Source of the DNA: Chloroflexaceae bacterium
Lineage (GTDB): Bacteria > Chloroflexota > Chloroflexia > Chloroflexales > Chloroflexaceae
Length of the DNA: 55,703 nt
Reading direction: 5' to 3'
Assembly (NCBI GenBank): GCA_028282325.1
Contig: JANQID010000138.1
Coordinates: forward strand, 1 to 55,703
Shown in pieces: positions 7,339 to 13,143 of this stretch. Made by a program: the position numbers and the translations under genes. Every line of letters starts with the position of its first letter. The first letter of the stretch is position 1. Below the pieces are notes generated by a model. That model worked only from the letters and a program-made list of their open reading frames with translations. It was not told where the DNA came from and did no database searches.

Positions 7339-7506
7339 TTATTCTCCCCAATCTTCTTCGACCTCCGGCGCAAGCTCCAGTGTCGGTGGTTCGGTGCTCA
7401 TAACCTCCAACTCGGCGCCGCATTCGGGGCATGAAATAATCTCACCGGTCATTGTATCTTCGAGTATGTCGAACTCGCCACCGCATTCCGGGCATGTCAC
7501 GTTCAT
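7339..7506 (-). CDS. lysW: amino-group carrier protein LysW
   Basis: A 55-residue acidic carrier protein, full length for LysW. Two CPEC motifs (Cys5/Cys8 and Cys26/Cys29) make the zinc-binding globule. The C-terminus is EEDWGE, the family's conserved tail, whose last Glu is the attachment point for aminoadipate. ATG 7506 is chosen because a strong AAGGAG lies at about 7515-7520; an in-frame start 14 codons upstream lacks one. The intermediates made by LysX, LysZ and LysY all ride on this protein. Together with the neighbouring genes it fixes the pathway as the bacterial/archaeal LysW version of alpha-aminoadipate lysine synthesis, not the diaminopimelate route. Confidence 0.95.
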   Translation of the reverse strand: MNVTCPECGGEFDILEDTMTGEIISCPECGAELEVMSTEPPTLELAPEVEEDWGE

Positions 7507-10510: not shown

Positions 10511-11662
10511 CTACTCCGCATATTCATACAGTAATTCATCGATATCATCAACATCAAGCGCCTGTTCATCAGCCAACGCCTTGAGGCGGGCGGTCGCAGC
10601 GCGTGCCTGCGTCTCGCTCAGCGTAATGCCCAGCTCGCGCGCGCGCTCGGCGATGGCGTGCCAGCCGGTCAGGCGATGAGCTATAGCAACGGTCCGATTC
10701 TTTCCAAACATTGCCGGATCGAGCACTTCGTAGCTCGTCGGATCGGCCAGAACGGCTTTGGTGTGCAGGCCAGCTTTGTGCGTGAAAGCAGCGGTGCCGG
10801 TAATGTAGTTGTTAAAGGGAATGGGCACGCCGACCAGATCGGAGATAAGCTCGTCGAGATACGGCAGCATATCCAGGCGATAGCGTGACACTAGTTGTGG
10901 GTCGAGCGATGCCAAACGCGCGATGAAGCCTCCGAGGGGAGTGATTCCGTTGCGCTCGCCGATGCCGAGCACGGAAACGTCGATGTGCGTCGCGCCGGCT
11001 TCGAGGGCGCAGAAGGCGTTGGCAATCGTACAGCCGCTATCGTTGTGGCCATGAAACTCGATATCGCAGCCGACCGCCTGGCGCACAACACTCACGACTT
11101 CGGTAATCTGGCGCGGCGTTGCAATGCCGACCGTATCGGCCAGACCAACACGCGCGATGCCCATCGAGTCCATCGCGGTGTAAATACGAATCAAATCTTC
11201 AATCGGCGTGCGGAAAGAATCTTCGCATGAAAAACGAATTTCGACATCGTGCTGCTGAAGGTAGCTAACCACGTCCTGCGCTTGCTCGATGATTTCATCA
11301 AGCGTGCGGCCGTGGCTCACGCGACGGAGTTGTTCGGAAGTGGCGAAGAGCATATTGACGCCCTGCGCGCCGCTTTCGACGGCAAGACGAGCATCTTGCA
11401 TATGGGTGCGGATGTGGGTTAGTATTTTTGTCCGCAGTCCCATCCCGGCGATAGTTGCGAGGTCGTGGGCGCTCTGCGGCGAGGCGGCTGGGGAAGTCAA
11501 CTCAAGGTATTCAACGCCAAATTCATCGAGTGCGCGAGCAATCGTCAGGCGTTGTTCGCTCGTAAAGTGAGCAGTGGCGAACTGTTCACCTTCACGTAAC
11601 GTGGTTTCAACAAACTGAAAGTGCGCGAGGTGCGCCCAGGATGGGCGATCATGCAATTCCAT
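10511..11662 (-). CDS. homocitrate synthase
   Basis: The 383-residue DRE-TIM metallolyase condenses acetyl-CoA with 2-oxoglutarate, the committed step of alpha-aminoadipate lysine synthesis. FVETTLREGEQFATAHF is the N-terminal signature, FHGHNDSGC carries the metal-binding His residues, and LGIGERNGITPLGGF plus FNNYITGTAAFTHKAGLHTKA match Thermus homocitrate synthase closely by eye. This distinguishes it from isopropylmalate synthase, which is longer and has a regulatory domain. ATG 11662 is preceded by only a weak AAGG, but an upstream 37-codon ORF with an excellent ribosome site overlaps it by 14 bases, so its translation is probably coupled. The gene stands first in the operon, behind a promoter and a probable attenuator. 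Confidence 0.9.
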   Translation of the reverse strand: MELHDRPSWAHLAHFQFVETTLREGEQFATAHFTSEQRLTIARALDEFGVEYLELTSPAASPQSAHDLATIAGMGLRTKILTHIRTHMQDARLAVESGAQGVNMLFATSEQLRRVSHGRTLDEIIEQAQDVVSYLQQHDVEIRFSCEDSFRTPIEDLIRIYTAMDSMGIARVGLADTVGIATPRQITEVVSVVRQAVGCDIEFHGHNDSGCTIANAFCALEAGATHIDVSVLGIGERNGITPLGGFIARLASLDPQLVSRYRLDMLPYLDELISDLVGVPIPFNNYITGTAAFTHKAGLHTKAVLADPTSYEVLDPAMFGKNRTVAIAHRLTGWHAIAERARELGITLSETQARAATARLKALADEQALDVDDIDELLYEYAE

Positions 11663-11762
11663 ATGTATAGCCTTGTCTCACTTGACACGAACCAAAAAGC
11701 TCCGGGCGAACACGGCGAGGGGTCCAAGCGATTAAGACGATTTTGTATGTTCGCTGTTGCAT
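11649..11762 (-). CDS. 37-residue upstream ORF coupled to homocitrate synthase
   Basis: ATG 11762 follows an AAGGAGGAG ribosome site (11768-11776), the best in the operon. The predicted product begins MQQRTYKIVLIAW and ends QGYTYGIA. Its TGA stop (11649-11651) lies inside the homocitrate synthase gene in another frame, giving a 14-base overlap. The peptide is Arg-rich (five Arg) with only one Lys. I recognise no domain. It probably serves to load ribosomes for translational coupling, or as a second sensing peptide; a functional small protein cannot be excluded. It lies just downstream of the intrinsic terminator, so it is transcribed only on read-through. Confidence 0.5.
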   Translation of the reverse strand: MQQRTYKIVLIAWTPRRVRPELFGSCQVRQGYTYGIA

Positions 11763-11798
11763 TGGCTCCTCCTTATATCATTTGTTTTTGTTGCACAC

Positions 11799-11838
11799 AA
11801 AAGGCCCGCGGCACCTTTCTGGCCTGGTGCTGCGGGCC
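11799..11838 (-). terminator. intrinsic terminator / attenuator before the lysine operon
   Basis: On the minus strand GGCCCGCAGCACC (11838-11826) pairs with GGTGCCGCGGGCC (11815-11803): 13 positions with a single A-C mismatch and a 10-base loop. TTTT follows directly (11802-11799). It is a strong Rho-independent terminator for ftsZ transcripts and lies between the lysine promoter and homocitrate synthase, the position of an attenuator. Confidence 0.85.
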
Positions 11839-11867
11839 TGATTTGCGCGATTAGCAGGCAGGCGACG

Positions 11868-11930
11868 CTAACCAGACCCGTGGCCCAGTCGTTTCGCGTG
11901 CTTGAACTGCTTAGAGAATTGTCTCGACAT
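11868..11930 (-). CDS. 20-residue leader peptide with three Lys codons
   Basis: ATG 11930 opens a 20-codon frame, MSRQFSKQFKHAKRLGHGSG, ending in TAG 11868-11870. It has Lys at positions 7, 10 and 13 and Arg at 3 and 14. The ATG begins 9 bases after the -10 box, so the mRNA would be nearly leaderless and no ribosome site is needed. Its last codons and stop (11878-11871, GGUCUGGU) can pair with ACCAGGCC (11828-11821) at the tip of the following terminator. That fits ribosome-stalling control. Leader-peptide attenuation of the LysW lysine cluster has been reported in Thermus thermophilus (from memory). The peptide here is a prediction. Confidence 0.6.
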   Translation of the reverse strand: MSRQFSKQFKHAKRLGHGSG

Positions 11931-11939
11931 AGCGATAAG

Positions 11940-11968
11940 AGTATAGCAATAGAACGAATCGCTGTCAA
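11940..11968 (-). promoter_or_regulatory. near-consensus sigma-70 promoter of the lysine operon
   Basis: TTGACA (minus strand 11968-11963) and TATACT (11945-11940) are separated by exactly 17 bases. The -35 box starts 6 bases beyond the ftsZ stop codon. The expected start of transcription is near 11933, a few bases before the leader-peptide ATG. Confidence 0.85.
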
Positions 11969-11973
11969 ACCGA

Positions 11974-13143
11974 TCATTGGCGACCCCGGTTGCGGTTGCG
12001 CAGGAACGGCGGAATATCCAGATCATCTCCGCTGCTAATACCGCTTGGATTGCGCAGTTGCGGCGCTGCCGGCTGGCGGGGCTGCGGTACTGGCGCCGGC
12101 TGCTGCGCCGGCTTCGACTGCTGCGCCGGCGTTGTCGCCGGGTATGAGCGTGATCGTTGCGCGTGGCTGCCAGGGCGGTTGATCTCAAAGCCGGTAGCAA
12201 TCAATGTCACCTTGACCTGGCCAGCCGGATACGTTGGATCGATCACTGCGCCGACGATGATGTTGGCGTCAGGATCGACAGCTTTGGCGACTACATCGGC
12301 GGCTTCGTATACTTCCAGAATGCCCAGATCTTCACCGCCGGTAACGTTGAACAACACGCCTTTCGCGCCTTCGATGCTCACTTCTAGCAGCGGGCTGGCA
12401 ATGGCCTGGGTAACTGCATCGACCATGCGACTGTCGCCGCTGCCCTCGCCGATTGCCATCAACGCCGAGCCAGCTTGGGCCATAATCGTCTTCACATCGG
12501 CGAAATCGACATTGATCAATCCGCGCTGCGTGATCAGATCTGAGATGCCTTGAATGCCCTGGCGCAACACGTCATCGGCCATCTGGAATGCCTGAATCAT
12601 CGACGTATTCTTGCTCGCAGTTTGCAGCAGCCGATCGTTGGGGATGACGATCAGCGTGTCAACCACCGGTCGCAATTGCTCGATCCCTTCTTCGGCAATC
12701 TTGCGGCGATGGTTGCCTTCAAAGGTGAACGGGCGCGTCACGACGCCGACGGTCAACGCCCCCAGGTCGTGGGATACGCCGGCGATGATCGGAGATGCGC
12801 CGGTTCCGGTTCCACCGCCCATACCGGCGGCGACGAAGACCATATCCGCGCCTTTGAGCTGCTCGTAGATTTCCTCCTGGTTTTCCTCAGCGGCTTTTTG
12901 CCCGATAACCGGATTGCCGCCGCTTCCCAGGCCGCGCGTCAGTTTATCGCCGATACGGATCCGCATCGGCGCAACCGAATGCAAAAGTGCCTGTGCATCG
13001 GTGTTGACCGTTACGAACTCGACCCCCTGCACGCCGCTGTCGATCATACGATCGACGGCATTGCTCCCGCCGCCGCCAATGCCGACGACTTTTATTTGGG
13101 CGAAGTCTTCTAATGAGAAGCCATTGTTGCTGTAGTCTACCAT
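11974..13143 (-). CDS. ftsZ: cell division protein FtsZ
   Basis: A 389-residue tubulin-like GTPase that forms the Z ring. The tubulin signature [10 protein letters not shown] is at residues 107-116, the N-terminal nucleotide region is [15 protein letters not shown], and NDRLLQ and the T7-loop region [11 protein letters not shown] follow. A Gln/Pro-rich linker of about 45 residues precedes the C-terminal conserved peptide [11 protein letters not shown], which binds partners such as FtsA. A good ribosome site (AGGAGGG) lies upstream of ATG 13143. It is the last division gene of the cluster and stands 97 bases after ftsA. Confidence 0.97.

Follow-up and report, generated by a model that had tools for sequence, protein, structure and literature searches.

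The window (the whole stretch of 55,703 nucleotides that we analyzed, from a Chloroflexaceae bacterium) carries on its minus strand an operon which, judged by its sequence, is a LysW-type (alpha-aminoadipate) lysine operon. The genes run in the order hcs (homocitrate synthase), the large and small subunits of a homoaconitase-like enzyme, a homoisocitrate/isopropylmalate dehydrogenase, lysW, lysX, lysY (argC-like, an ArgC-type reductase), and lysZ (argB-like, an ArgB-type kinase). A preliminary description of this DNA had already assigned the operon to lysine synthesis, and both hcs and lysW do score above the TIGR cut-offs. The features of the locus are:

11940-11968, minus strand: sigma70-type promoter TTGACA-N17-TATACT, from the sequence (-35 box TTGACA at 11968-11963, 17-nt spacer, -10 box TATACT at 11945-11940)
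11868-11930, minus strand: leader peptide ORF of 20 codons, MSRQFSKQFKHAKRLGHGSG-TAG, with its ATG at 11930, 9 nt past the -10 box; Lys codons 7, 10 and 13 are at 11912-11910, 11903-11901 and 11894-11892
11893-11912, minus strand: Lys-codon region, the 5' arm (A) of the extended pause hairpin
11882-11890, minus strand: 5' arm of the pause hairpin P1 (GACUGGGCC), which pairs with E (p = 0.018 against shuffles)
11871-11878, minus strand: E segment (GGUCUGGU), both the 3' arm of P1 and the 5' strand of the antiterminator
11852-11866, minus strand: post-stop segment B, the partner of the Lys-codon region
11821-11828, minus strand: ACCAGGCC, the 3' strand of the antiterminator, within the terminator arm and loop
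11799-11838, minus strand: strong intrinsic terminator GGCCCGCAGCACC-loop-GGTGCCGCGGGCC-TTTT, from sequence and folding, with a helix that covaries in relatives (5' arm 11838-11826, loop 11825-11816, 3' arm 11815-11803, TTTT 11802-11799)
11649-11762, minus strand: ORF2, MQQRTYKIVLIAWTPRRVRPELFGSCQVRQGYTYGIA-stop, between the terminator and hcs, with a strong Shine-Dalgarno sequence (AAGGAGGAG) at 11774-11766
10511-11662, minus strand: hcs, the first gene of the operon (TIGR02146, 438.5 bits, cut-off 413.55)
7339-7503, minus strand: lysW, encoding a carrier protein with C-terminus EEDWGE (TIGR01206, 66.7 bits, cut-off 53.2)

The preliminary description had interpreted the region upstream of hcs as a lysine-sensing transcription attenuator, and its promoter, 20-codon Lys leader, E segment, terminator, and alternative helix are all located where it had placed them. 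In the window, the terminator stem has 13 positions with one A/C mismatch, and ACCAGGCC and E pair over 8 bp with one G-U. We also found two helices that were missing from that account: P1, which hides E by pairing 11890-11882 with 11878-11870, and a helix between the Lys-codon region and the post-stop segment. Compared to shuffled sequences, the significance of these helices in the window is modest (p = 0.010 for the Lys-codon arm with the post-stop segment, p = 0.018 for P1, and p = 0.048 for the antiterminator). But the doubt that these values leave is removed by conservation in about 35 related loci and by covariance model E-values down to 1e-27.

We retrieved the homocitrate synthase loci of relatives and inspected their upstream regions. 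The lysine architecture precedes homocitrate synthase or the LysW cluster in nearly all Chloroflexaceae, and it is also present in Roseiflexaceae-like genomes and in several other lineages of Chloroflexota. As the attenuator interpretation implied, the operon is accompanied across these lineages by Lys codons, by GGTCTGGTTAG, and by a terminator with a loop that pairs with GGTCTGGTTAG. A promoter of the form TTGACA-N17-TATnnT precedes nearly every related lysine leader. The consensus of the Chloroflexaceae-type leader is KQxKRxKKPxxRSG-stop or similar, with GGTCTGGTTAG as the DNA at its end, and ACCAGAC(C) lies within the terminator arm and loop. Counting codons from the stop, lysine is found at -14, -11, and -8 (31 of 36 leaders each) and at -7 (30 of 36); Q at -13, R at -10, P at -6, and R at -3 are conserved as well. 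The window's own leader lacks the second K of KKP (its codons -8 and -7 encode K and R), which counts against a lysine sensor. The core pairs of the antiterminator are kept in 33-36 of the 36 sequences at six positions. Wherever the leader has the serine (32 of the 36), its codon is TCT, as compared to 3% of the serine codons across twelve of the window's genes, which argues that the leader's nucleotides are under constraint. Among the related loci that we compared, ftsZ is upstream of the element in the window only, which ties the element to the lysine genes rather than to ftsZ.

A covariance model that was trained on 27 Chloroflexaceae lysine leaders only had matches with E <= 0.1 in 63 of the 80 relatives, and families outside the training set had E-values of 1e-13 to 1e-17. 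Matches that trace to training sequences are not independent; the independent matches are those in family f4 (again with E of 1e-13 to 1e-17), in Caldilineaceae-type genomes, and in further genomes with arginine or glutamine versions. In family f4, the lysine version lies ahead of homoaconitase, lysW, or a LysE-family gene. We also searched with a loose DNA pattern (TCTGGTTAR-gap-CCAGA), which gave many chance matches, in some genomes roughly equal in number to those of the reversed control, so we used only those model matches that had a fitting peptide and target gene. Five candidates (L257, L172, L175, L177, and L178) appear to be chance matches, and model matches on the opposite strand are a product of the palindromic terminators. 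As a separate observation, five loci of family f4 (L163, L159, L160, L162, and L171) have a LysE-family gene inside or just behind the lysine-attenuated unit, which is odd for an exporter.

ORF2 was also absent from the preliminary description. In the window, its end overlaps the start of hcs by 14 nt. The frame is found in 29 related Chloroflexaceae loci, where it ends in TPR..RPELFG[SA]CQ[VL]R... with a stop that overlaps the hcs start. Across these loci, the entropies at the three codon positions are 0.38, 0.17, and 1.08, which implies that ORF2 encodes a conserved peptide. This peptide has no match in Pfam or NCBIfam, and convincing matches to it are confined to the regions upstream of hcs in Chloroflexaceae-type loci. 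ORF2 is apparently missing from one locus (L176, genome G017), and in another (L014) the expected ATG is followed immediately by TAA. Given its position, ORF2 may provide translational coupling into hcs or a second control of hcs. In three other loci from Chloroflexota (L053, L057, and L058), lysW lies between the attenuator and hcs, in the place that ORF2 occupies in the Chloroflexaceae.

The Caldilineaceae-type genomes separate the E segment from the peptide. Their leader, AKKKSKKQKPD-stop or a close variant, is too short to reach E, but both E (CCUGUCUGG) and the loop (CCAGACAGG) are retained. Early-stop loci with E (CCTGTCTGG), from Caldilineaceae-type and related genomes, are L061, L065, L077, L078, L081, L083, L084, L092, and L106. 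In the early-stop loci, the Lys-codon strand GAGCAAG is still opposite CTTGCTC past the stop. Because E is kept where the frame stops before it, the antiterminator strand is conserved as RNA and not as peptide, and the SG that ends the Chloroflexaceae peptide arises as a by-product of the helix.

In the genome from which the window comes, the lysine-only model also identified a second copy of the element (G000:C94:590-705, E = 3.1e-5). This element precedes argG (above the cut-off of TIGR00032), and its leader ends in RRIRSRRQPVCWSG-TAG, with Arg codons in the same register. Arginine versions lie ahead of argG, argJ/argH, or argC in about 25 genomes. Leaders before argG, from family f2 as well as further Chloroflexaceae, include VLRRFRRCQPARRSG, RQLRRQPAYWSG, RRRPRRQPALCPG, MLRFRRRTQPDDPSG, and PRRLRRTQPDQTSG; Chloroflexus and Oscillochloris have an arginine version before an argJ-argH operon (YDRRRHRRQPVTRTG and HRRRRRCRRQPIARSG); and two distant genomes have one before argC-argB-argD (we confirmed the identities of ArgJ and ArgC). 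With a combined lysine and arginine model, many Chloroflexaceae genomes have two elements, one of each kind. In six of the Chloroflexus and Oscillochloris loci (L242, L243, and L245-L248), the Arg-attenuated argJ-argH operon is headed by what looks by eye like a phosphoglycerate-mutase-like gene.

Between 45 nt upstream of the stop codon and about 17 nt downstream of it, the alignment of lysine and arginine elements is gapless, except for one gap column in the two Roseiflexaceae-like sequences. At the nine control codons, the lysine leaders have 41% Lys and 9% Arg, while the arginine leaders have 1% Lys and 46% Arg. The conserved Arg positions use the synonymous codons CGT, CGC, CGA, AGG, and CGG, and this variation points to translation of the leader. 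We also found Gln-rich leaders (SQQRGQQQPDRRSG, NNSQRQQPASRSG, SRDQRQQPDPGSG, NQQRQPVPMPDLRFG, and others) before LysE-family genes (PF01810 where tested) at nine loci (L167, L170, L251, L254, L255, L256, L259, L260, and L261). It would be odd for an exporter to be induced by glutamine starvation, which suggests import, another substrate, or some other role for these proteins. Elsewhere, the scaffold carries a Pro/Glu-rich leader (MPMRLPSPPEPEKPDRRSG-stop; L168, G254:C97:33540-33655) upstream of a gene that by eye is metallophosphatase-like.

By these sequence comparisons, the element in the window is a member of a Chloroflexota family of attenuators on one RNA scaffold, in which the control codons correspond to the amino acid that the downstream gene serves (Lys or Arg), with Gln codons before LysE-family genes. 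We consider it somewhat probable that the lysine, arginine, and glutamine versions share a common descent. With about the same modest confidence, we favor the view that copies of one ancestral scaffold arose within Chloroflexota genomes and became tuned to lysine, arginine, or glutamine through changes in their control codons alone, while the position of the stop, E, the loop, and the targets shifted around.

Covariation supports the terminator and the antiterminator. Across 27 lysine leaders, the terminator and the pause hairpin together had a covariation score of 0.151, versus 0.120 for shuffled alignments (0 of 500 reached it), and the terminator contributed most of it. For the Chloroflexaceae lysine leaders alone, covariation of the antiterminator was not significant, because it is almost invariant there. 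In the combined lysine and arginine alignment, the antiterminator's score was 0.197 versus 0.146 shuffled (0/500), 93.2% of its positions were paired versus 90.4% shuffled (0/500), and there were 8 double-change cells (1/500); the pairing was lost when the partner strand was slid. P1 pairing is present throughout and beats the shuffles in most of the sequences tested, and its covariation is not significant. At one locus (L236), E is GUUUGGG and both of its partners are altered to match (CCAAAC in P1 and CCCAAA in the loop). Shuffle tests on individual sequences also support the helices in distant lineages. The helix between the control codons and the post-stop segment had no support in the arginine leaders. 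Duplex energies within and across species did not discriminate, because the antiterminator hardly varies. Pairing of the post-stop segment with the terminator base, as a further hairpin in the Chloroflexaceae, was suggestive but no better than shuffles.

We propose that the LysW lysine operon is, very probably, controlled by a trp-type ribosome-mediated transcription attenuator; this rests on sequence conservation and on folding. P1, extended by pairing between the Lys codons and the post-stop segment, would hide the end of the leader. If lysine is plentiful, the ribosome would reach the stop codon and cover E, and the terminator would form. If lysyl-tRNA is scarce, the ribosome would halt on the Lys codons just before P1, which would free E; while the terminator still lacks its 3' arm, E would then pair with its loop, and transcription would continue. 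The best stall position is the KK directly before P1 (codons -8 and -7). It counts against the model that P1 could still form if the ribosome halted at the first Lys codons.

We folded 33 lysine leaders in silico, either as transcripts that ended before the 3' arm of the terminator or at full length. In the shortened transcripts, the antiterminator formed in 33 of 33 with the ribosome at codon -8 or -7, and in 0 of 33 with the ribosome at the stop codon (RNA masked to 12 nt past the start of the stop codon). Together with the conserved Lys codons, terminator, and pairing of E with the loop, this prediction favors the lysine-sensing attenuator of the preliminary description. Other folds count against it: in full-length transcripts with a stalled ribosome, the terminator was still favored in 26 of 33, and with no ribosome, the antiterminator formed in 26 of the 33 shortened transcripts and the terminator in 29 of the 33 complete ones. 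Because the terminator wins in full-length folds, the decision must be kinetic. In the same ribosome-placement test, the terminator also wins in full-length folds of E. coli trpL, whose sequence we confirmed. The preliminary description had listed as a weakness that the antiterminator disrupts just three pairs of the terminator. This is not special to the element, as E. coli trpL folds alike, and it implies kinetic control.

E and the loop are conserved more than the peptide is, and E is untranslated in the Caldilineaceae-type genomes. So we also considered that the pairing of E with the loop might be an RNA signal for a protein or for Rho/NusG, rather than for a translating ribosome, with the leader frame incidental. 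However, this seems improbable: the Lys or Arg codons are in register, they fit the pathway behind, their third positions are synonymous, and the end of the leader frame is always at E or directly ahead of it. Another idea is that the leader peptide itself is the effector, as an arrest peptide or acting in trans like peTrpL, and that the level of charged tRNA is not sensed. Conservation of the Q, R, and P residues beside the Lys codons would fit with this. But the P and the SG are accounted for by RNA pairing (CC of the Pro codon with GG of the Gly codon, and the TCT codon bias), the swaps between Lys, Arg, and Gln track the target operon, and the SG is missing where the frame stops early, so we view a peptide effector as slightly less probable still. 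A known riboswitch class (L-box or T-box) at this site has a negligible chance: although lysine operons of other bacteria use the L-box, no Rfam family matched the window at its gathering score, and none matched 11640-11990 up to E = 1. A ribosome-mediated attenuator fits these observations best.

The preliminary description had emphasized that the leader is nearly leaderless. The 9-nt distance from the -10 box to the start codon is confined to the window and six Chloroflexus loci; in most others, it is 27-55 nt. As judged from these distances, the near-leaderless start is a local variation and not the core of the finding. For comparison, among 12 Chloroflexi genomes, leaderless genes were detected in 4, where they made up 4.7% of genes (PMC3160421).

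Trp-type attenuation is itself known; what is new is a Chloroflexota-wide scaffold with lysine, arginine, and glutamine versions. The early stop in Caldilineaceae-type genomes reveals conservation of the antiterminator strand at the RNA level. Textbook attenuators are usually regarded as having been invented separately for each amino acid. If our proposal is correct, then this is a naturally modular family of attenuators that is programmed by codons. A single genome has the scaffold with Lys codons before lysine genes and with Arg codons before argG, which amounts to a natural codon-swap experiment. The scaffold thus offers a directly testable, and possibly programmable, sensor of amino acids. 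It also predicts how lysine and arginine synthesis are regulated across an understudied phylum, including the phototrophic Chloroflexus.

The E. coli trpL attenuator, like those of the his, leu, and thr operons, combines a leader peptide of control codons, alternative hairpins (1:2, 2:3, and 3:4), and an intrinsic terminator. The lysine element shares these parts with the trpL type, as well as its behavior in ribosome-placement folds, and differs from it in amino acid, phylum, and sequence. Furthermore, the Chloroflexota scaffold can carry Lys, Arg, or Gln codons, and its antiterminator mostly uses the loop of the terminator. Another similar system is that of the LysW lysine cluster of Thermus thermophilus, for which Tsubouchi and colleagues reportedly described leader-peptide attenuation by lysine in 2005. 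The pathway and the leader-peptide attenuation by lysine are the same in that system, which is not known to include counterparts to the arginine and glutamine versions of Chloroflexota. In Actinobacteria, comparative genomics identified leader-peptide attenuators for trp, ilv, trpS, and leuS, and the same survey reports no conserved RNA structure ahead of lysine and arginine operons (PMC1262725). Our search of the open literature found no relevant paper on lysine, arginine, or Chloroflexus attenuators. An ORF at or near the 5' end of the transcript, as in the window, also occurs in Sinorhizobium meliloti, where rnTrpL (of the rnTrpL/peTrpL system) begins at the ATG of trpL (PMC7298713), and in mycobacteria, where leaderless polycysteine sORFs act as attenuators according to the title of Canestrari et al. 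2020 (cited in PMC13236596). Those systems concern other amino acids and other phyla, and the near-leaderless start that they share with the window is not a constant of the Chloroflexota family.
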